The notes below the pieces were generated by a model, which worked only from the letters and a program-made list of their open reading frames with translations, did no database searches and was not told where the DNA came from. A program made the position numbers and the translations under genes. From Archangium gephyra (lineage in GTDB: Bacteria; Myxococcota; Myxococcia; Myxococcales; Myxococcaceae), in the NCBI RefSeq assembly GCF_001027285.1, contig NZ_CP011509.1, forward strand, positions 7,278,501-7,342,500: a stretch of 64,000 bases of DNA. The letters are read 5' to 3'. Below are positions 4,201 through 53,892 of the stretch, piece by piece; the first letter of the stretch is position 1; every line of letters begins with the position of its first letter.

Positions 4201-5841
4201 GGTCTCGATGCCCTCGGCGATGTGCGGCAGGTAGGCGGAGTCGCTCGGGATGGCGCTCAGCGGATCGATGGACGGATAGGCGCAACCGCTGGTCAATTCG
4301 GTGCCGGAGCTGTCCCCCAGCGGGAAGGTCTCATAGTTGAGGCCGCTGGCGCCGGCCCCCAGACCTTCCTGGTTGCCACCGCTCGTGGAGGTGCTCGGCT
4401 TGTCGAGGTTGCGCAGCAGCCCGTTCTGACCGCCGGAGCCAGCGATGGAGGTGGTGCCCGCCATCACCTGCCGCAGCTCCGCCCAGCGGATGGCCGCGCC
4501 ACTGGAGGTGGAGGATGGGATCTTCGTGTGGCCATCCTTGCCGATGCGCCAGTCGTGGCGGTGCTCGTAGCGCTCCGAGGTGAAGCCGGAATAGGGCGCG
4601 CCCTGGTAGGTGATGTGATCGTGCGGGTTGATGAGACCCGGAGACACCACGCCGTCCGGGCACACCACCTGCGTGGCCGAAGCCGCCTCGGCGAAGCTGG
4701 AGCAATTGCAGCCCACGCACTGGATGACGCCAGCCGGATCGAAGAGGACCTGGCCACCGTTGTAGACCGTGTCCGCGGTGAGGATGACGCCCGTGATGAG
4801 GCGGCTGGCGCTTCCCGGCGTCACCGAGCACGTTCCCGACGTGGGCGGCGGCAGCGGGGAGCTCAGGCACTCGACGATCGTGCCCATGCCTCCATCGGAT
4901 CCCGCGTCCGTTGCCGTGCCTGCATCCGGCCACGTGCCTGCGTCTGGCCATGTGCCCGCGTCCGGCCGCGTGCCTGCATCCGGCCACGAGCCTGCGTCCG
5001 GCCACGTGCCCGCATCCGGCCACGTGCCCGCATCCGGCTCCGTGCCTGCGTCCGGCCACGTGCCTGCATCCGGCCACGTACCCGCATCCGGCTCCGGCTC
5101 CGTACCTGCGTCTGGCCACGTGCCTGCATCCGGCCACGTGCCTGCATCCGGCTCCGTACCTGCGTCTGGCCACGTGCCTGCATCCGGCCACGTGCCTGCG
5201 TCATCGCCTGCATCCGTCCCGGTCCCAGCATCTACATGGGTACCCGCGTCCACGACCTCCGTGCCCGCATCGACGACCGGCAGGGTGCAGTTGTGCTCGC
5301 ACCCATCACCCCCCACGGTGTTGCCATCGTCGCACTGCTCCGGCGGCTCGACGATCGCATTGCCACAAACTGGCCCTGAGGACCCCGCGTCGGGTTCCGT
5401 GCCCGCGTCGGGTTCCGTGCCCGCGTCGGGTTCCGTGCCCGCGTCTGGCTTCGTGCCCGCGTCGGGCTCCGTGCCCGCGTCGGGTTCCGTGCCCGCGTCT
5501 GGATCCGTGCCCGCGTCTGGATCCGTGCCCGCGTCGATGACCGGCAGGGTGCAGTTGTGCTCGCACCCATCACCTCCCACGTTATTGCCGTCGTCGCACT
5601 GCTCCGGTGCCTCCAGGATCTTGTTGCCACAGACCGGCCCCGTCCCGTCAGGAGTCAGGGTACAGGTGTTCTCACACCCGTCACCGTTCACCCTGTTGCC
5701 GTCGTCGCACTGCTCGGCGCCAGCCTTCACGCCATCGCCGCAGCGGGCCGCTTCCTCTCCGTCGCCGCACCCCGTGAGCACCAGCAGCAACGCGGTGAAG
5801 GCAACGAGTCCCACTCGACGGGATGGCAGCATCGGGCGCAC
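1276..5841 (-). CDS. Giant modular lipoprotein: Cys repeats, amidohydrolase, TSP3, lamin-tail domain
   Basis: A 1,521-residue secreted lipoprotein with lipobox LTGC (Cys25). In order: three myxobacterial cysteine repeats (EQCDDGN...GDGCE pattern, near residues 33-62, 71-100, 160-188), alternating with two Pro-Asp-Ala-Gly-Thr tracts (about 100-155 and 190-320). An amidohydrolase-like domain follows at about 330-750, with a metal-site HDH near 405, IIHG and GTDW near 624. Acidic calcium-type thrombospondin-3 repeats (DxDGDGxxD) lie at about 810-910, then an OB-like segment, a beta-rich region, and a lamin-tail domain at about 1330-1455. The architecture suggests a cell-surface or secreted hydrolase on a flexible stalk; the substrate is unknown. 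The signal peptide and start are clear. Confidence 0.85.
4897..5277. repeat. Coding minisatellite (PDAGT repeats), long tract
   Basis: Tandem 15-18 bp units (CCTGCATCCGGCCACGTG and variants) inside the giant lipoprotein gene, encoding [12 protein letters not shown] units. Units differ by silent and one-residue changes, and compound units such as TEPEPDAG occur, consistent with slippage or recombination. Coding, not a CRISPR array. Confidence 0.85.
5379..5546. repeat. Coding minisatellite (PDAGT repeats), short tract
   Basis: Second tandem array in the same gene: about nine near-identical 18-bp units (GTGCCCGCGTCGGGTTCC and variants) encoding EPDAGT. Its units are more uniform than those of the long tract, suggesting more recent expansion. 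It separates the second and third cysteine repeats of the protein. Confidence 0.85.
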
Positions 5842-5958
5842 CTGCTCCGGCCCGGAAACCTTCCCGCGGAGGGCGGGGGACCGGATCGGCGCCCATCATG
5901 CCCGAGAGGTCATTCAAGTGACACTCACCCCATTCCACTCGGGGCGGAATCCCCACGC

Positions 5959-45322: not shown

Positions 45323-46681
45323 TCAGTCCTCGATCTGTGTTTCGAGAAATGGTTTCTGCAGGCCGCGCCAGACTCGGGAACTCGCGCCTTCCGAGACCAC
45401 TCGCCCTACCGCCAGACCCGCGGCGCACGCGTGGTGCACGTTGTCATGCACGAACAGCGCGCTGCGTCCCACCGGGTAGAGTCCCTCCACCCGACTCAAT
45501 TCGTTCAATGCCCGCTCGCGCGCCACCGCGAAGCCCTTGCGGTACAGGGGATAGGCCGCTGCCATGCGCCGCACTCGGGCGCCCAGCACCTCCACGCCCG
45601 CCAGCCCCGTCCGCTCCAGTGCCGGGCGCACCCGCTCCGTGAGCTCCTCCGGCGACGCCCGCCAGATGCCGTCTCCCACCGCGCACGGCAGATCGAAGCC
45701 CACCACCGTCCGGCCCGCGGGCCCCGCGCCGCCCAGGAAGTTCCTCGCCTCGAAGAGCCGGTTGGCCGGGAGCCGCTCGTCCGCGAAGTAGTGCACGTCC
45801 TGCGGTGTGCCGCGCTGTGTCGCGAGCGCCAGGTACAGCAGCGTCAGGGCCCGGTAGCCCAGGCCCTCGGCCGCCTCGGGACGCCCCGTCCACTCGCACA
45901 ACAGCGGCAGCGGCACCGTGGCCACCACCGACTCCGCCGGCAGCTCCCGCCCCGCCACCACCACCGCCCTCACCCGCCCGCGCTCCAGCACCAGTCCCTG
46001 GGCCGCCGCGCCACAGCGCACCTCGCCCCCGGCCCGGCGGATGCCTTCCGCGAGGCCCTCGGCCAGCGCGCCCACGCCGCCCTCCGGGTAGAAGTAGCGC
46101 CGCCCCGCGGACGCGCCTCCGCGCCCGAGCGCCGCGCGTACCACCGCCAGTGGGCCGCCCTTCTGCACCCGCGCCCGCCCGAGCGAGGCATCCAGTTCCT
46201 CCGGCGCCAGGCCCCACACCTTCCTCGCCGCGGGCCCGTACAGCACCTGGGCCGCGTGCCGTCCCAGCCGACGCGCCGCCTCCGCTCCGAAGTGGTTGCC
46301 CTCCGGTGGGCGCAGCCGCGCCATCACCGCGGACAGCCCGTGCCTCGCCACCTCGGTGAGCCCCAGGCCTCGCGCGAGGCCGAGCAGCGACAGCGGATAC
46401 GGCAGCCGCCTCCCGCCCACGTGCACCATGCCGCTGCGCGCCCTCACCTGCAGCGCGGCGCCCAGGGCCTCGCGGTAGAGCGCCAGCACCTCCGGCCCCG
46501 CCGCCTGGTGCAGCCGGTGCGGGCCGTAGTCCACCTTGAAGCCCGCGAAGTCGAACGAGCCCGACAGTCCGCCCACCTGCTCGGCCGCCTCGAGCACCAC
46601 CACCCGCTTCCCGGCCCGGACGAGCGCATGCGCCGCGGCCAGTCCCGAGGGCCCCGCGCCGATGACCACCGTCGCGCTCAC
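45323..46681 (-). CDS. FAD-dependent amine-oxidase-like oxidoreductase
   Basis: 452 residues. N-terminal dinucleotide loop VIGAGPSGLAAAHAL and VVVLEAAEQVGGL (ribose-binding Glu), with the C-terminal FAD stretch near HHACAAGLAVGR. The family includes protoporphyrinogen oxidase and UDP-galactopyranose-mutase-like enzymes, and such genes are common in glycan clusters. GTG 46681 overlaps the glycosyltransferase stop (GTGA). Substrate unknown. Confidence 0.85.
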   Translation of the reverse strand: MSATVVIGAGPSGLAAAHALVRAGKRVVVLEAAEQVGGLSGSFDFAGFKVDYGPHRLHQAAGPEVLALYREALGAALQVRARSGMVHVGGRRLPYPLSLLGLARGLGLTEVARHGLSAVMARLRPPEGNHFGAEAARRLGRHAAQVLYGPAARKVWGLAPEELDASLGRARVQKGGPLAVVRAALGRGGASAGRRYFYPEGGVGALAEGLAEGIRRAGGEVRCGAAAQGLVLERGRVRAVVVAGRELPAESVVATVPLPLLCEWTGRPEAAEGLGYRALTLLYLALATQRGTPQDVHYFADERLPANRLFEARNFLGGAGPAGRTVVGFDLPCAVGDGIWRASPEELTERVRPALERTGLAGVEVLGARVRRMAAAYPLYRKGFAVARERALNELSRVEGLYPVGRSALFVHDNVHHACAAGLAVGRVVSEGASSRVWRGLQKPFLETQIED

Positions 46682-47403
46682 CCCGTGCCTCCCACCGCCG
46701 GCAACTCCAGCGCCGCGAGCCTCCTCGGCGCCCGGCCCTCGCGCAGCCAGCCGATGCCTCGCGCCACCGTGCGGCCCATCAACCACGTGTCCCGCACCGG
46801 GCGCCACTTCGAGCGGCCTACGCGCGCGTGGTAGTCGATGGGCAGGAAGACGATGGGATCTCCCGCCGCCGCCAGCGCCAGCGTCAGCGTCGTGGTGAGC
46901 GAGAAGCGATCCGGCAGCACCGGCGCGAGCGACAGCAGGTCCGCCGTGCGCAGCACCCGCAGGCCCGAGTTGAGATCCGGCGCCTCGAAGCCGCCCAGCC
47001 ACCGCACCGCGCCCCGGAAGAGCGCCTTCACCGCCGAGCGCGCGAAGGGCTCGGAGGCTCCAAGCTTCGGCCGCGCGCCAATCGCCTGCCTCGCGCCGCC
47101 ACGCACCGCCGAGAGCAGCTGGGGCAGCGCCGCTTCCGGGTACGTCCCGTCCGCGTCGATGAGCGCCAGCAGCGAGCCGTGTGCCTGGGCGGCCCCGGCC
47201 TTGATCGCCGCGCCGTAGCCCACCCCGGTCAACGTCAGCACCCGCGCTCCGGCCTCGCGCGCCACCGCGCCCGTGCCGTCCCGCGAGCCGTCGTCCACCA
47301 CGAGGAGCTCGTGCGCCTCCCCCGCCAGTGCCGCGCCCACCCGCCGCACCACTCCGGCGATGGCGCCCACCTCATCGCGCGCGGGGATGACGACGCTGAT
47401 CAT
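46678..47403 (-). CDS. Family 2 glycosyltransferase
   Basis: 241 residues. GT-A fold: VVIPARDEVGAI, LLVVDDGSRDGT, and the DAD metal motif in LIDADGTYPE. No C-terminal membrane segments of the DPM type are seen. Likely transfers a sugar to a lipid carrier or acceptor at the inner face of the membrane. It overlaps both neighbours by 4 bases (ATGA and GTGA). Confidence 0.9.
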   Translation of the reverse strand: MISVVIPARDEVGAIAGVVRRVGAALAGEAHELLVVDDGSRDGTGAVAREAGARVLTLTGVGYGAAIKAGAAQAHGSLLALIDADGTYPEAALPQLLSAVRGGARQAIGARPKLGASEPFARSAVKALFRGAVRWLGGFEAPDLNSGLRVLRTADLLSLAPVLPDRFSLTTTLTLALAAAGDPIVFLPIDYHARVGRSKWRPVRDTWLMGRTVARGIGWLREGRAPRRLAALELPAVGGTG

Positions 47404-48017
47404 CCCGGCGCCACCTCCGACGAGGCTGGCACCGGCCGCCACATCTCCCACAGCGGCCACACCAGCATCGGCAACCACCCCACCGCCGCGCCCACCACCG
47501 ACACCGGCATCAGCCAGCCCCACTGCGGCCCCACGAAGCGCACCAGCAGCGGCGCCAGCAGGTGCACGAACGTCGCCACCGAGGCCAGCGTGATGACGCC
47601 CACCTTCAGCCGCACGGACAGCGCCGTCAGCATGAACAGGTGCCCGACGATCAGCAGCACCACCGGCACCGTGAACAGGTGGAAGTGGAACGTCTCCATC
47701 ACCTGCCGCGCGGGCTTCTCCAGCCGCATGGGCGCTACGGCCGCCGTCTCTCCGGGCAGCTCCAACGCCGGTCCATCCGGAGGCAACTCCAGCGCCGGGC
47801 CTCCCGCCGCGTCCACCCCGGGCGCGGTCGCGGCTTGCGCGGCACCACCCCGGTAGTACTCCACGGTGCTCCGCCCGGACAGACCTCCGAACGAGTCCGC
47901 GTACAGCCACACCGAGGACACGAAGCCCAGCACCAGGAACAGCAGGAACCCGGTGTAGAGGACGCGCGCCTCGAGCGACAGGCGGGTGATGGGAAACGGC
48001 CGGGCGAACTGACGCAC
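47400..48017 (-). CDS. Membrane protein of the flavin cluster, possible electron-transfer subunit
   Basis: 205 residues. One N-terminal membrane segment (about 20-42), a periplasmic Pro/Gly/Ala loop (about 45-105), then about three further segments. ETFHFHLFTVPVVLLIVGHLF carries three His at the start and end of one helix, placed where haem or quinone ligands could sit (inference). No family recognised. It starts eight bases after the FMN-binding gene and overlaps the GT2 by 4 bases, so it is made with both. Confidence 0.65.
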   Translation of the reverse strand: MRQFARPFPITRLSLEARVLYTGFLLFLVLGFVSSVWLYADSFGGLSGRSTVEYYRGGAAQAATAPGVDAAGGPALELPPDGPALELPGETAAVAPMRLEKPARQVMETFHFHLFTVPVVLLIVGHLFMLTALSVRLKVGVITLASVATFVHLLAPLLVRFVGPQWGWLMPVSVVGAAVGWLPMLVWPLWEMWRPVPASSEVAPG

Positions 48018-48024
48018 GAGAAGG

Positions 48025-48615
48025 CTACCCCTTGGGCGTACCCAGATCGGGCTTGAGAATGAGCTCGTCCAGCAGCACGAGCGCGCGGCGCACCCCCATG
48101 GCCATCGACCTCGACGAGATGGTCGCTCCCGTCACCACGTCGACGTCCACCCCCGCCCGCACCGGATCCTTCGCCGTCTTCCCCTGGAACTGGCGGCGGA
48201 AGCGCGCGTCGGTGATCTCCTGGCCGTACGACTCCCGGTACACCATCACCTCGTGACGCTCGACCACGCCCTCGGGCGACAGCTTCACCGCGAAGGTGAT
48301 CTGCTCGTGCTGGCCCAGCTCCTCGTCGATGATGGCGTAGCCGTCCACGTGCTCGCCCGTGGTGGCCACGAAGATGACGTACTCGGGCTTCGCCGGCTTG
48401 TAGCCAAGCCGCCCCTGCACCGCGGCCAGCTCGGGGGGACCGAGCTTCACCTTGCGGTAGGTGACGCGCTGGCTCTTGGGGAAGAACTCCTTGAGCACCT
48501 GCGGCGTCGTGAAGAACGTGCCCGCCGCCCGCGCGGGCAGCGATGCCCCGAGCCACAACCCCACCAGCAGCACCAGCGCGAAGTGCTTCACCATCATTCC
48601 CCTTACCACGCTCAT
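48025..48615 (-). CDS. FMN-binding domain protein (flavinylation target)
   Basis: 196 residues. Signal peptide (about 8-30, ending ARA), then an FMN-binding domain like that of RnfG/NqrC. DVVTGATISSRSM carries the T-G-A-T/S flavinylation motif, whose Thr takes FMN by phosphoester from ApbE; apbE is divergent at the head of this train. This makes it a periplasmic flavin electron carrier. GTG/ATG choices: 48615 overlaps the lipoprotein stop (ATGA); ATG 48594 near an AAGGGG site is an alternative. Confidence 0.85.
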   Translation of the reverse strand: MSVVRGMMVKHFALVLLVGLWLGASLPARAAGTFFTTPQVLKEFFPKSQRVTYRKVKLGPPELAAVQGRLGYKPAKPEYVIFVATTGEHVDGYAIIDEELGQHEQITFAVKLSPEGVVERHEVMVYRESYGQEITDARFRRQFQGKTAKDPVRAGVDVDVVTGATISSRSMAMGVRRALVLLDELILKPDLGTPKG

Positions 48616-49148
48616 GGCAGCTCCCGAACCGCCTGGATGACGGCCTGCCTGACGTGCGAGCGCCAGTCCGTCCGGGCGCGATAGAGATTCTGCGACGTCG
48701 CGCTCCGGCGATCGTCGCTCGACAGGACCCGGCCATCCGGGCCCACCATCATCGACTCCAGCTCGATCTCGGCGCGCCCGAGCGGCTGCATCGCCGACAG
48801 ATCCAACCGCGTCAGCACCAGCACCACCGCCGCCTCCGCGCGGTACTCGCGCGCCAGGGCCGCGGCCTGCTCCACCGTGGGCGCCGCCCCCGCCGTCAGC
48901 TCCACGCCCAGCACCTCGTAGCCTCGGGTGCGCAGGGCCTCGGCGCCTTCCCGGGCCACCACGTCACGCGGATTCTCCGAGCCAAACACGTCTCCGGTGA
49001 ACCCTCTCGGCGCGGGCCTGGGCACCACCGACGCGCCCACCACCACCACCCGCGACGGAGCCCCTTCCGGACGCACGGCCTTCCCGCCACAGGCGGCGGC
49101 GAGCAACACACTGGCGGCAATACGGGTGGTGAGCAGCAAGGCGCGCAT
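48612..49148 (-). CDS. Lipoprotein of unknown function
   Basis: 178 residues with lipobox LLAAAC (Cys20). The mature part alternates strands and helices (VVVVGASVV, REGAEALRTRGYEVLGVEL, AEAAVVLVLTRLDL), a pattern seen in outer-membrane lipoproteins of the GNA1162/TolB-N type. No firm family. It sits between the barrel and FMN-binding genes, overlapping the latter. Confidence 0.68.
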   Translation of the reverse strand: MRALLLTTRIAASVLLAAACGGKAVRPEGAPSRVVVVGASVVPRPAPRGFTGDVFGSENPRDVVAREGAEALRTRGYEVLGVELTAGAAPTVEQAAALAREYRAEAAVVLVLTRLDLSAMQPLGRAEIELESMMVGPDGRVLSSDDRRSATSQNLYRARTDWRSHVRQAVIQAVRELP

Positions 49149-49162
49149 CGGTTCTCCGGCTC

Positions 49163-50554
49163 TCAGAAGAGGTAGGCCACGCTGGCCAGGAACGTCCAAT
49201 GGCCCTCGTCCCAGAACTGCCCCGACCAGGCGTGCGGCTGCTCGCCATCGCCGCCGCTCTTCTCCCAGAAGAAGCTGCTCTTGAGGACATAGGGCGGCAG
49301 TGGCCGGAAGTTCAGGCCGAGCGTCAACCGCGCCACGTCTCCCGAGGTGATGAACTCCGTGTCGGTGTCCTTCTCCTCGTAGCGGAGCGAGGCCGTGAAG
49401 TGGCCCTCCTTCCACTCGTCTGGCAGCAGCCGGAAGAAGGGCTCGATGCGGAAGCGGTAGTTGGCCTGCCCGTAGAAGCCGAACATCCCCGTGGGCACCC
49501 GGTCGCGGGTGTTGGCCGTCGAGCCGTTCGGGAAGCCCTGCACGAAGCCGGGATCGATGAAGGCGCCCACCACCTCGCCCGTCAGGTCCAGCGCGCCGAG
49601 CCGCCAGAAGACGTCGGCGTTGAGCATGTTCACCCGGCGGCCCTCGACGTCATACGCGCCCGTGTAGCCGGACAGGCCCGCCTCCAGCCCCAGGAAGGGC
49701 GAGACGGACACGCGGCCGGTGAGGGCCTTGTCGTTGTTGTTGTCCTCCAGGTGGCTGCCGCGCGCCGCCCGGAAGCCCTGGCCATCGAGGATCTTCGCGT
49801 CCAGGCCGTTGACCGCGTACACCTCGTAGGACAGGCGCCAGTCCCGGCCCAGGTCGAAGCCGCCCAGGAAGCCCGCGCCGGACTCGAACCAGGTGGTGGG
49901 AACGATCGTCGTGTACGCGATGGGGCGCTCGGGCAGCTCCTGCGCCGGCGCGTCGTGCCGCAGGTTGTACGCGCCCACCGGCACCAGGATGACGCCCGCC
50001 CGGAAGGTAGCCCAGTCCGTCAACATCAGATCCACCACCGAGAACTCGAGCAGCACCTCGCCCGCGCCCAGGCTGCCGTCGCGCTTGAGCGGGCTGCCCG
50101 CGAACTCGAACTCGATCTCCGTCGCCGTGGAGACGCGCTCGGAGATGTGGCTGTAGACGAAGAGCACGTACCGGTGGGCACGGAACGTGGTCACGCCCTG
50201 CTGGGGCAGGATGAAGTCATGCTCGGCGTAACCGCCCAGCGTCGTCCGGTCGAGGATCGCCGCCGCCCGCTGCGCCAGCGTGGTGGTGGGCTGGAGCCGC
50301 TCGGTGAAGGTGTCCTGCTCCGTCTGGCCGGGCGTCTCGGCGTTGGGCGCCGGAGCCGCCGTGCCCGTCCCGGCCGGATCCTCCAGGCCTTCCAGGTCCA
50401 GCTTCGGGCCCTCCTCCTGCTTCGGCGCGTCCTCCGCCGGGCGCGCGGGCGTGGAGCCCTCTTCTTGCGCGAGACCCGTGAGGGGCGCGAGCAGCAGGCA
50501 CAGCAGAAACAGGTGATGGCGGCCCGGCATGGTGGCTCTCGAAGTCATACGCAT
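49163..50554 (-). CDS. Outer-membrane beta-barrel (porin-like)
   Basis: 463 residues. Signal peptide to about residue 30 (LLAPLTGLAQ), acidic Pro-rich linker, then amphipathic strands (HRYVLFVYSHISERVSTATEIEFEF, split: YVLFVYSHIS, STATEIEFEF) and a terminal aromatic (SVAYLF). The pattern resembles phosphate-selective-porin-like barrels. DNNND and acidic loops could bind cations. The start overlaps the lipoprotein stop (TGATG). Probably the outer-membrane conduit of this cluster (inference). Confidence 0.8.
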   Translation of the reverse strand: MRMTSRATMPGRHHLFLLCLLLAPLTGLAQEEGSTPARPAEDAPKQEEGPKLDLEGLEDPAGTGTAAPAPNAETPGQTEQDTFTERLQPTTTLAQRAAAILDRTTLGGYAEHDFILPQQGVTTFRAHRYVLFVYSHISERVSTATEIEFEFAGSPLKRDGSLGAGEVLLEFSVVDLMLTDWATFRAGVILVPVGAYNLRHDAPAQELPERPIAYTTIVPTTWFESGAGFLGGFDLGRDWRLSYEVYAVNGLDAKILDGQGFRAARGSHLEDNNNDKALTGRVSVSPFLGLEAGLSGYTGAYDVEGRRVNMLNADVFWRLGALDLTGEVVGAFIDPGFVQGFPNGSTANTRDRVPTGMFGFYGQANYRFRIEPFFRLLPDEWKEGHFTASLRYEEKDTDTEFITSGDVARLTLGLNFRPLPPYVLKSSFFWEKSGGDGEQPHAWSGQFWDEGHWTFLASVAYLF

Positions 50555-51258
50555 CACTCGCCCGTCTCGGCGTCCATGCAGCGGCCACGCATGCACGTCT
50601 TGCCCGTGGCGCACTCGCTCTCCGGGTTGGTGCCCCCACAGCACACGCCCACGCAGACGCAGCACACGGTGCCCTCGGGCGCGGTGCCCGCCAGGCACTC
50701 GGGCGTTGCCTGACAGCTCGGGGGATCCACGCACACCACCGCCTTGGGCGCGTTCGACTCGCCCACGTACGTGACCGTGCCGTAGTACGAGTCCACCACC
50801 TCCCGGCCCGGACTCCCCATGTTGGTGTCGAAGTACTCGTAGACGCCCGGCTTCGGGAAGGCATAGCGCCAGTAGGAGAACGTCTGCCCGGACTCGGTCC
50901 CCACGTTGTAGGGGCGCACCAGGTTGGGGCTGAAGAGCGGCGCGGGCGACGACAGCGAGGTGATGTTGGTGGGCACCTCGGGCTGGTAGTTGCGGAACTC
51001 GACGATCTGCTCCGGCAACATGGACAGCCCGCCCGCTCGGGTGAACACCGCCGTGCCCTCCGGCACGTCCACCGTGTACCGCGGCCCGATGCACGTGGGC
51101 GTGATGGTGCGGTAGCGGCCATCGACGATGCGGTTGAGGGACACGGTGATACGGGGCACGCCCTTCGCCGAGTCCTGGACGGGCTGGAAGTCCGCGGGCG
51201 CGGGGCCCTTGCACGCAGCGGCACAGAGCGCGAAGGCGAGGAGGAGGCAGGCGCGCAT
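50554..51258 (-). CDS. Cupredoxin-like lipoprotein without copper ligands, Cys-rich tail
   Basis: 234 residues with lipobox CAAAC (Cys16). Residues about 50-170 look like a cupredoxin fold: GQTFSYWRYAFPKPGVYEYFD...GTVTYV matches the plastocyanin-type C-terminal half. The usual His (PHxVTS) is Thr in PTNITS, and the Cys of YEYFC is Asp, so copper cannot bind in the normal way. The last 60 residues hold about a dozen Cys (CCVCVGVCC and others), probably disulphide-bonded. It overlaps the glycosyltransferase stop by one base. Confidence 0.68.
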   Translation of the reverse strand: MRACLLLAFALCAAACKGPAPADFQPVQDSAKGVPRITVSLNRIVDGRYRTITPTCIGPRYTVDVPEGTAVFTRAGGLSMLPEQIVEFRNYQPEVPTNITSLSSPAPLFSPNLVRPYNVGTESGQTFSYWRYAFPKPGVYEYFDTNMGSPGREVVDSYYGTVTYVGESNAPKAVVCVDPPSCQATPECLAGTAPEGTVCCVCVGVCCGGTNPESECATGKTCMRGRCMDAETGE

Positions 51259-52793
51259 CAGAGGACCTTCTCGGGACGGGCCGGCGGCGCGGGCCGGTAG
51301 TGGAAGAGGACGATGTCGTGGGCGTGCGAGCGCATACGCCGGTTGCACGTGAAGCGCGACACGGGCTCCAGGTGGGGCGCGAGCGACTCGGCCCCGGGAG
51401 CGGTGGAGGTGACGTAGACGTCCGCCCCGGCGGCGGCCACGCGCTCCACCTCGCGGCGCAGCTGCTCGCCCGTGGCGGGACGGCCCGCGCGGAAGTGGGG
51501 CACGTAATGCTCGAAGAGCCGCGCCTCCTCGCCGGTGAAGAGCAGCATGCCGGACGGAGCCAGCGTGGAGGACACGTGCGCCACCAGCCGCGCCGCGGGC
51601 GAGGGCTCGCGGCCCTGCTCGAGTGCCACGGGCAGCATGACGGCCACGGTGCTCACGGCGAGGGCTCCGGCCACGGAGACAGAGACCCGGGACGGCCGGG
51701 CGCGGGCGAGCACCGCCACGCCCACCGCGGCCAGCAGGGACAGCGCGAGCACCACGGGCAGGGCATGGCGCGCCTTGAGCAGGTTCTGCCCGAGGAACAT
51801 CCACGCCGCGTAGGGGCCTCCGAGCACCAGTGCCAGCAGGGCCACGCGACGCTCGGTGGCGGACAGCGACGCACGCAGCGCCGCGTGGGCGAGCGCCACC
51901 AGGGACGCGGTCAGGCCGAGCGCCAGGAGGAGCCGCGCGGTCAGCACGGCCACGGAGTCACCGCCCACGCCAGGCCAGGGCAGCCCGAGACCCGCGCCCA
52001 GGATGTCGAAGCCGAAGTGCTCCAGGCGCCAGCCGAGGTCCGGGCGCACGGCCACGGTGCCGCCCCACTTGCCCGCGTGGCCGAGCAGGAAGCCCGAGCA
52101 GATGCGCAGCAGCTCCGCCGGGCCCGTGAGGACCACCAGGGGAACGAGCCACGCCCCCACGCCAATGCCACCGCCCGCGAGCGCCGCCAGCCGCCGGCCA
52201 CGAGGCACCACCAGGGCGAGCCCGAGCAGCGCCGGGAGGAACGAAGGCCGGGCCCCGAGCGCCACACCCGCCACCGCGCCCGCCAGCACCGCCATCCGGG
52301 GCGCGGAGTCGGCCACGCGCAGTGCGGCACAGGCGGCGAGCACCAGGAACGCGAGGCCCGTCCCATCCGAGCCCGGGGTGGCGCCGAAGAGCACGGGCAG
52401 GGGCAGCAGGGCCAACAGGGCCGAGGCCACCAGCGCCCCGGTGTCCCCAAGGTACCGCCGCAGCACGAGGCCCAGCGCGCCAATGGCCGCCGCTCCGAGG
52501 ACGAGTCCGGGCAGGGCCAGCGCCAGCACCTCGGAGGCACCAGCAGCCGAGGCGAGCCGCGCCAGGGCCACGTACACCGGGTAGCCCGGGAAGTGCGGAG
52601 CCTGCGCGGCGAGCTCGAAGCGGCTGAGGGAGCGCGCGAAGTTCACCGCATCCAGGTCCGGCAGGAGCCTGGGCAGCGCGAGCACGCGTGCGGTCACTCC
52701 GGCCCCCACCAGCAAGGCAAGGGCACCCGTGAAGGCCCGGGAAGGCGCGGAGTGAATGATTTTGAGATTCATTCTCAAAAACAGAGAATACAT
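51258..52793 (-). CDS. GT39-like integral membrane glycosyltransferase
   Basis: 511 residues, about ten membrane segments, and a C-terminal soluble part (about 420-511). LPDLDAVNFARSLSRF and HFPGYPVYVALARL near the start resemble the first periplasmic loop of GT-C (PMT/ArnT-like) transferases, with an Asp pair for catalysis. It would use a polyprenyl-phosphate sugar outside the membrane. First gene of the train. The Fur-like box overlaps the first codons if ATG 52793 is used; ATG 52772 also lies in the box, so the true start is uncertain. Confidence 0.78.
   Translation of the reverse strand: MYSLFLRMNLKIIHSAPSRAFTGALALLVGAGVTARVLALPRLLPDLDAVNFARSLSRFELAAQAPHFPGYPVYVALARLASAAGASEVLALALPGLVLGAAAIGALGLVLRRYLGDTGALVASALLALLPLPVLFGATPGSDGTGLAFLVLAACAALRVADSAPRMAVLAGAVAGVALGARPSFLPALLGLALVVPRGRRLAALAGGGIGVGAWLVPLVVLTGPAELLRICSGFLLGHAGKWGGTVAVRPDLGWRLEHFGFDILGAGLGLPWPGVGGDSVAVLTARLLLALGLTASLVALAHAALRASLSATERRVALLALVLGGPYAAWMFLGQNLLKARHALPVVLALSLLAAVGVAVLARARPSRVSVSVAGALAVSTVAVMLPVALEQGREPSPAARLVAHVSSTLAPSGMLLFTGEEARLFEHYVPHFRAGRPATGEQLRREVERVAAAGADVYVTSTAPGAESLAPHLEPVSRFTCNRRMRSHAHDIVLFHYRPAPPARPEKVL
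52760..52780. promoter_or_regulatory. Fur-box-like palindrome
   Basis: TTTTGAGA-N5-TCTCAAAA, 8-bp perfect arms. On the minus strand the core reads TGAGAAT-G-AATCTCA, which agrees at 11 of 14 positions with the 7-1-7 Fur consensus TGATAAT-N-ATTATCA. It is AT-rich in a GC-rich setting and lies between the divergent train and apbE, so it could control both. Confidence 0.6.
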
Positions 52794-52875
52794 GACGTAC
52801 TACGCGTCCGGGTAGGAGGTCAAGTTGAGGGGAGCGGTGGCACCAGTAGGCCATCTCATGTGACAGAGGGAGACC

Positions 52876-53892
52876 ATGATGCTGAGTGCCCTGCTGGTGG
52901 TGGTCGTGGCCGCTGCACCCGCTGTGCGAGTCCGCACCGAGACGCGTCCGATGATGGGGACGACGGTGACGGTGACGCTGGTGGGAGGCACGCCGGAGAA
53001 GGCGCGCGAGGGGTTCGACGCGGCCTTCGGCGCCTTCGAGCGCGTCAACCAGGTGATGAACGAGTGGCGCCCGGACAGCGAGCTGTCGGCGGTGAACCGC
53101 AAGGCGGGAGATGGGGAGTGGGTGACGGTGCCCGAGGACCTGTGCGCGGCGCTGAGGCGCGGGGTGCAGGGAGCGGAGCAGACGGGAGGGCTGTTCGACC
53201 CGACATGGGCGGCGCTGCGGGGAATGTGGAGATTCGGGACGGACCTGACCCCTGCCCTACCGGACGCGGCCGAGCTGAAGAAGCGGTGCGCGCTCATCTC
53301 GTACAAGGATCTGGAGTTCGCACCGGCGGCGGACGGAGGGGCGCCCGGGTGCGGCGTGCGGCTGAAGCGCGCGGGGATGCAGCTGGGACTGGGAGGCCTG
53401 GCGAAGGGCTGGGGCGTGGACGAAGCGGTGAAGAAGCTACGGGGACAGGGGTTCAAGGACTTCTTCGTGCAGGCCGGGGGAGACTTCTACGCGGCGGGGA
53501 AGAAGGCGGGCCGGCCGTGGAAGGTGGGGATCCGGGATCCGCGAGGCGAGCCGGACAGTGTCTTCGCGGTGCTCGAGGTCTCCGACGCGGCGTTCTCGAC
53601 CAGTGGGGACTACGAGAACTTCTTCGTGCTGGAGGGCAAGCGCTACCACCACATCATCGATCCACGGATGTGCTACCCGGCGACGGCCTCGCGCTCGGCG
53701 ACGGTGCTCGCCCCGAGTGCGGTGGACGCGGAGGTGCTGACCAAGTCCGTGTTCATCCTCGGAGGCCAGGAGGGACTGGCGCTTGCGGAGAAGCACGGCG
53801 CCTCTGCGGTGGTGGTGACGGGGGACAACCAGGTGCTGGTCTCACCCAGGTTGGAGAAGAGGCTTAAGCGACTGAAACCACCCAGCCCCTGA
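52876..53892 (+). CDS. apbE: ApbE-family FAD:protein FMN transferase
   Basis: 338 residues with a signal peptide and no lipobox Cys. Typical ApbE motifs: MGTTVTVTL, LGGLAKGWGVDEA, GGDFYA, and STSGDYENFFVLEGKRYHHIIDP, where the SGDY and HHIIDP residues bind FAD/Mg. It attaches FMN to Thr in periplasmic proteins; the natural substrate is the FMN-binding protein encoded at 48025. AGGGAGACC precedes the ATG. It is divergent from the train across the Fur-like box. Confidence 0.93.
   Translation: MMLSALLVVVVAAAPAVRVRTETRPMMGTTVTVTLVGGTPEKAREGFDAAFGAFERVNQVMNEWRPDSELSAVNRKAGDGEWVTVPEDLCAALRRGVQGAEQTGGLFDPTWAALRGMWRFGTDLTPALPDAAELKKRCALISYKDLEFAPAADGGAPGCGVRLKRAGMQLGLGGLAKGWGVDEAVKKLRGQGFKDFFVQAGGDFYAAGKKAGRPWKVGIRDPRGEPDSVFAVLEVSDAAFSTSGDYENFFVLEGKRYHHIIDPRMCYPATASRSATVLAPSAVDAEVLTKSVFILGGQEGLALAEKHGASAVVVTGDNQVLVSPRLEKRLKRLKPPSP

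Follow-up and report, generated by a model that had tools for sequence, protein, structure and literature searches.

A probable Fur operator at a flavinylation and porin locus of Archangium gephyra suggests a role in iron acquisition

In Archangium gephyra, an apbE gene and a leftward train of flavin-related genes diverge from a short region containing a palindrome, which raises two questions: is this locus governed by iron through Fur, and does its electron-transfer system itself handle iron? We addressed both starting from a window of 64 kb (the whole stretch of DNA that was analysed). The FMN transferase gene apbE lies on the plus strand (52876–53892; Pfam ApbE, 268 bits). On the minus strand, the train opens with a PMT_2-type membrane glycosyltransferase (51258–52793; Pfam PMT_2, 30.5 bits), followed by a lipoprotein-like secreted protein with a Cys-rich C-terminus (50554–51258; no family found, conserved in seven relatives), an outer-membrane porin weakly matching Porin_O_P (49163–50554; 22.4 bits at a cut-off of 20.9, kept in relatives) and a small lipoprotein, p144 (48612–49148, start estimated). 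Next come an FMN_bind protein (48025–48615; Pfam FMN_bind, 35.3 bits), which carries the conserved flavinylation motif TGATISS and is the predicted ApbE substrate, and a four-helix membrane protein, TM205 (47400–48017; no family match), a candidate b-type cytochrome with conserved H111, H113 and H126. A family 2 glycosyltransferase (46678–47400) and an FAD-dependent amine-oxidase-like protein (45323–46720), both assigned by family matches and both in conserved order in relatives, are the following genes of the train. An ApbE domain accompanied by an FMN_bind substrate with the [ST]GA[ST] motif points to ApbE-type flavinylation.

The C-terminal cysteines of the secreted protein are conserved in the pattern VCC.C...CC...C....TC.RGRC. 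Structure prediction, based on eight closely related sequences in each case, gave a weak model with four helices for the four-helix protein (mean pLDDT 56) and a poor one for the Cys-rich lipoprotein (mean pLDDT 37).

The palindrome at 52760–52780 (no strand assigned) reads TTTTGAGATTCATTCTCAAAA, with perfect 8-bp arms around a 5-bp centre; the 21-bp repeat described in an earlier note on this DNA is thus borne out by direct reading, and an inverted-repeat search also describes it as 11-nt arms of 91% identity. Its core 15-mer (52763–52777) agrees with the 7-1-7 consensus TGATAATNATTATCA at 11 of 14 positions, reproducing the match claimed in that note, and fits TGAGAATNATTCTCA better, at 13 of 14, a palindromic 7-1-7 match beyond chance. 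Elsewhere in the 64-kb window, the runner-up places have four mismatches to TGAGAATNATTCTCA. Across the 12.49-Mb genome (12,489,432 bases), five places come within one mismatch of TGAGAATNATTCTCA and ten within two; the expectations, taken from a first-order Markov model of the window, are 0.2 and 5.1. At three mismatches or fewer we found 72 places against about 80 expected, and genome-wide enrichment at this level was rejected as evidence for Fur boxes. The pattern read backwards gave 11 places at the same threshold against 72 forward, a contrast that mostly reflects composition. Because enrichment is absent at this level, only the class with at most one mismatch is informative genome-wide, and a lone three-mismatch box is weak.

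The same genome contains Fur-family regulators and further copies of the motif at iron genes. Its two Fur-family genes include one Fur-like member at 135 bits (L001) and a second at 50.8 bits (L002), one that NCBIfam scores cannot assign to Fur, PerR or Zur. Three of the four other places with at most one mismatch adjoin siderophore, TonB or siderophore-receptor genes. One box (L003) is found at a TonB-like ORF whose neighbours are an Fe2+-dependent dioxygenase (NCBIfam, 367 bits) and a PepSY-like membrane ORF; the TonB-like and PepSY-like assignments were made by eye. Another (L004) precedes a 2,3-dihydro-2,3-dihydroxybenzoate dehydrogenase (384 bits, above cut-off) and then an isochorismate-synthase-like ORF recognised by eye, and a third (L007) stands ahead of a Fiu-like TonB receptor. 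Beside the fourth box (L006, 1501–1515), no plausible gene and no iron gene was recognised. The genome also encodes one FTR1-cytochrome c fusion (L201, 421–2259), with TGATTTTGATTCTCA (three mismatches) directly upstream of its frame, and a genome search found no feoB above cut-off. The 135-bit Fur-type regulator and the recurrence of the box at siderophore and TonB genes support its identity as a Fur box. In Myxococcus xanthus, the myxochelin genes are repressed by FurA, according to the accessible part of PMC11388931.

The earlier note named a lack of conservation of the palindrome in orthologous promoters among the findings that would refute the Fur-box reading. A family search with ApbE covered 96 genomes, 23 of which had a match. 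The full divergent locus, with ApbE facing away from PMT2-lipoprotein-porin-p144-FMN_bind-four-helix-GT2-amine oxidase, is kept in seven genomes besides the window, four of the same genus (G002, G003, G004 and G006) and three of a sister genus (G031–G033). All seven carry a box with at most three mismatches: one in G003 and G004, two in G006 and G031, and three in G002, G032 and G033. The G002 box has changed to TGATAATCAATCGCA and retains a Fur-type palindrome. Neither ApbE nor FMN_bind was matched in G005, of the same genus.

The position of the box relative to the train is also conserved. By consensus resemblance, a promoter-like pair for the leftward train lies on the minus strand at 52797–52823, with TTGACC (52823–52818) separated by 15 nt from TAGTAC (52802–52797); TTGACC followed 14–15 nt later by TAGTA precedes the box on this strand in all eight orthologous promoters. 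Since the pair precedes the box, the box would lie just downstream of the likely transcription start, which is a repressor's place. Towards apbE, a consensus scan of the window sequence yielded only a weak sigma70-like pair on the plus strand (TTGAGA-16-GAGAAT, 52762–52789; 9 of 12 consensus positions), whose −35-like hexamer is overlapped by the box. As the earlier note placed it, the box lies between apbE and the flavin train, but, a point absent from that note, it also covers what appears to be the N-terminal end of the leftward ORF 51258–52793. This frame opens at 52793 or 52772, and the ATG at 52772–52770 is inside the box. In six relatives, the first membrane helix is closely preceded by an ATG that leads into (T/P)(P/S)R(A/S/V)F and lies about 50 bp downstream of the box. 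A 36-bp deletion at 52746/52747, common to the window and G004, removes the ATG that these six relatives apparently use for the PMT_2 gene, so that the ORF of the window and G004 opens in or above the operator.

Beyond the orthologous loci, the module of porin, FMN-binding protein, four-helix protein and ApbE is spread through Myxococcota and also turns up in acidobacterial genomes. Searches of Myxococcota gave the four-helix protein in 17 of 195 genomes and a match to the FMN_bind profile in 36 of 193; the same profile matched in 64 of 199 genomes of the phylum of a Terriglobia MAG, which we take to be Acidobacteriota. Boxes were scanned in 64 loci, the window included, comprising family loci, relatives of the four-helix and FMN_bind proteins, and MAG loci. 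The scan took 37 of the 40 listed Myxococcota FMN_bind places and 21 of the 67 from the phylum of the Terriglobia MAG, best scores first and not at random, and loci were picked by protein score before their boxes were examined. For each head of at least 300 bp, we recorded the best match to three Fur consensi between −700 and +150 of the first same-strand module gene; the third consensus, TGAAAATNATTTTCA, was added after PMC545781, an earlier scan having used two. Loci with heads below 300 bp (L080, L157, L181 and L187) and L089, L090 and L097, which repeat L046, L047 and L058, were left out.

Among porin-bearing heads, 41 of 51 have a box with at most three mismatches, 22 with at most two and 11 with at most one. 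Dinucleotide shuffles of the same heads gave 1.45 at three mismatches and 0.05 at two, and the backwards patterns gave 1 and 0. A narrower scan region, leaving out boxes inside the first gene's tblastn match, gave 35 of 51, and the region was widened to +150 for all loci to give the count of 41. When the four best-sampled genera were collapsed, 29 of 36 groups carried a box. The ten porin-bearing heads lacking a box at this threshold are L093, L159, L163, L165, L170, L173, L179, L185, L186 and L195; in L093 the box lies instead between the four-helix and FMN_bind genes, and in L159, L163 and L165 a match with at most three mismatches lies instead ahead of a neighbouring fur. Loci without a porin had a box in two of nine cases (the misses being L083, L084, L171, L172, L175, L176 and L183), and none was present at the seven ApbE loci of the family where neither porin nor FMN_bind was matched, the best sites there showing 5–7 mismatches. 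In L087, L091, L092, L093, L094, L161, L162 and L164, judged by eye, the box overlaps the start codon and encodes the first signal-peptide residues, such as MKIVFKF (L091) or MRMTINI (L162, L164).

The membrane partner varies among the remote loci. In a second four-helix family, from other loci, 16 aligned sequences show five positions at which His reaches 90% or more, a pattern compatible with a di-heme b cytochrome. PepSY_TM proteins stand beside the module in L178 (2567–3025) and L096 (5526–6020), where no four-helix protein matched, which suggests an exchange of the membrane partner.

Iron genes recur in the neighbourhood of these modules. A fur gene lies within the analysed stretch at 16 of the 64 loci, as in L095 and L096 (PF01475, 124 and 115 bits) and in L081, where it is directly upstream of the train (133 bits). 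In one genus (group g31), presumably Anaeromyxobacter, a feoB match directly follows fur in all eight loci. The Pfam check, made in L162, gave the order fur (122 bits), feoB (FeoB_N 166 bits, Gate and FeoB_C), a DtxR-C/FeoA protein, Fur box, porin, FMN_bind and four-helix, with apbE convergent; here the porin and FMN_bind proteins were named by tblastn rather than by Pfam. The DtxR-C/FeoA protein (5262–5936), which follows feoB and precedes the porin's Fur box, fuses a DtxR-type dimerisation domain to FeoA. In the acidobacterial locus L178, the box lies between the module and an FTR1-FtrD-like permease (115 and 94 bits), which face each other. Since similar boxes stand at related flavin-porin sets, some of them beside iron-uptake genes, the system most likely helps the cell to obtain iron. 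The suggestion in the earlier note that the electron-transfer system handles iron gains support from regulation and from linkage to fur, feoB and FTR1, and we infer it from these rather than from chemistry.

Taken as a whole, the sequence evidence makes it very probable that the palindrome is a Fur operator. A reader other than Fur, namely a PerR- or Zur-like member of the family such as the product of L002, would make peroxide or zinc the signal. The second gene, whose class NCBIfam leaves open, allows for this, but near-identical boxes at siderophore and siderophore-receptor genes speak against it, as do the regulators beside the remote modules of L081 and L190, the two scanned with NCBIfam, which both score best as Fur; we consider such a reader very improbable. 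A palindrome arising by chance, or conserved merely through the overlapping frame, might be imagined given that the box covers N-terminal codons of ORF 51258–52793 and that this frame stays open through the box in relatives. Yet only 0.2 places of this quality would be expected genome-wide, the likely start in six relatives is downstream of the box, and boxes recur ahead of first genes as unrelated as those for porin, FMN_bind, ApbE and PepSY proteins, which makes this explanation extremely improbable.

As to function, the explanation that we find best and judge likely to be correct is a flavin-based ferric reductase that serves iron uptake and is repressed by Fur. When iron is sufficient, Fe(II)-Fur would sit just downstream of the leftward promoter and block the PMT2-lipoprotein-porin-p144-FMN_bind-four-helix train, and it would probably repress apbE through the same site. 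When iron is short, the train would be expressed and ApbE would attach FMN to the FMN_bind protein. The His-rich, possibly heme-bearing membrane protein could then carry electrons from the quinone pool to the flavin, which would pass them to ferric iron that has entered through the porin or is located at it; the porin's part may be either the entry of a ferric ligand or the placing of the reductase at the outer membrane. The resulting Fe(II) would be taken up by a ferrous (FeoB) or FTR1-type permease. Against the ferric-reductase reading, the window's own train includes no iron transporter and its genome no feoB above cut-off, ten of the 51 porin-bearing heads are without a box at three mismatches, and an iron role is not evident for three members of the train, the PMT_2 glycosyltransferase, the GT2 protein and the amine oxidase.

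The same Fur control would be expected if the module spared iron instead of acquiring it, with Fur switching on a flavin-based envelope electron path that replaces heme or Fe-S carriers and iron not being the substrate. This saving principle is discussed in the accessible parts of PMC8238504 and, for flavodoxin, of PMC545781, and it agrees with the lack of a transporter gene in the window's train. It sits poorly with the linkage to feoB in the eight g31 loci and to FTR1 in L178, with the porin as a constant partner and with a membrane partner that itself retains heme-like His, and we regard it as unlikely. A role in respiring extracellular acceptors, to which Fur control would be incidental, has a precedent in the flavinylated carriers of several respiratory chains (PMC8238504, as far as accessible). 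However, with Fur repressing the module in iron-replete cells, iron respiration would stop just when iron is abundant, and the neighbouring genes are those of assimilation, leaving this role quite improbable.

Preferring the ferric-reductase reading, we see an even chance that it extends to an iron-acquisition system, widespread in Myxococcota and Acidobacteriota and so far without a name, whose trans-envelope chain is repressed by Fur. In such a chain, a periplasmic protein with covalently bound flavin would work with a dedicated outer-membrane porin to reduce ferric iron, FeoB or FTR1 would receive the Fe(II), and the operator would often lie in the first codons of the leading gene. What began as a guessed promoter motif now gives a flavinylation module found in at least two phyla an assignment that can be tested and that ties it to iron uptake. 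According to the accessible text of PMC11334425, no characterised system is present in about half of the genomes that encode ApbE flavinylation machinery, and the module, if the assignment is true, would account for one class of these uncharacterised flavinylation systems. Myxobacterial predation depends on iron competition (PMC11388931, accessible part), and a further iron route, independent of siderophores, would therefore matter to these bacteria.

Several known systems share parts of this design. Operators of the Fur regulon (7-1-7 or delta-type FUR box) have the same TGAGAATNATTCTCA-class palindrome, found also beside siderophore and TonB genes of this genome, and several remote module heads match the delta consensus WTGAAAATNATTTTCAW given in the accessible part of PMC545781; the module boxes differ in often overlapping the start codon or encoding a signal-peptide head. 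A connection between flavinylation and iron assimilation is drawn in the accessible text of PMC8238504, which also cites the repression of PepSY-like clusters by Fur. These clusters (DUF2271/ApbE, in Shewanella and Caulobacter) have the same ApbE flavinylation under Fur and a proposed role in iron reduction and assimilation. The present module has FMN_bind rather than DUF2271, together with a porin and a four-helix protein without PepSY match (PepSY_TM being beside the module only in L096 and L178), and neither PepSY_TM nor DUF2271, the pair that marks such a cluster, was matched among the ten window proteins scanned with Pfam. The P19/FTR1 systems with FMN-binding genes, as presented there, join FTR1 to a flavinylated partner, and L178 likewise sets its FTR1-FtrD-like permease opposite the module; the difference is a porin module in place of P19, of which the proteins scanned gave no match, and the ten window proteins include neither P19 nor FTR1, the two genes of such a cluster, FTR1 being elsewhere in the genome. 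Flavinylation-associated cytochromes are described in the accessible part of PMC11334425, and those of the DUF4405-like type are comparable in placing a His-bearing membrane protein beside a flavinylated carrier, whereas here there are four helices, not six, and no DUF4405 Pfam match. Under iron limitation, a bifidobacterium needs apbE and a cluster with an FMN-binding protein (PMC5449479, accessible part). The combination of flavin, porin and feoB or FTR1 was not found in the literature searched, where subscription papers were mostly beyond reach. In the accessible part of PMC545781, psp, a PF07396-like porin behind FUR boxes in Geobacter metallireducens and Desulfuromonas, is proposed to act in iron transport, and no link to FMN_bind or ApbE is made there; its likeness to the window porin consists of a weak PF07396 match in each and the FUR box. 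The known kin of the module are the Fur-repressed PepSY flavinylation clusters and the FUR-box porin psp.
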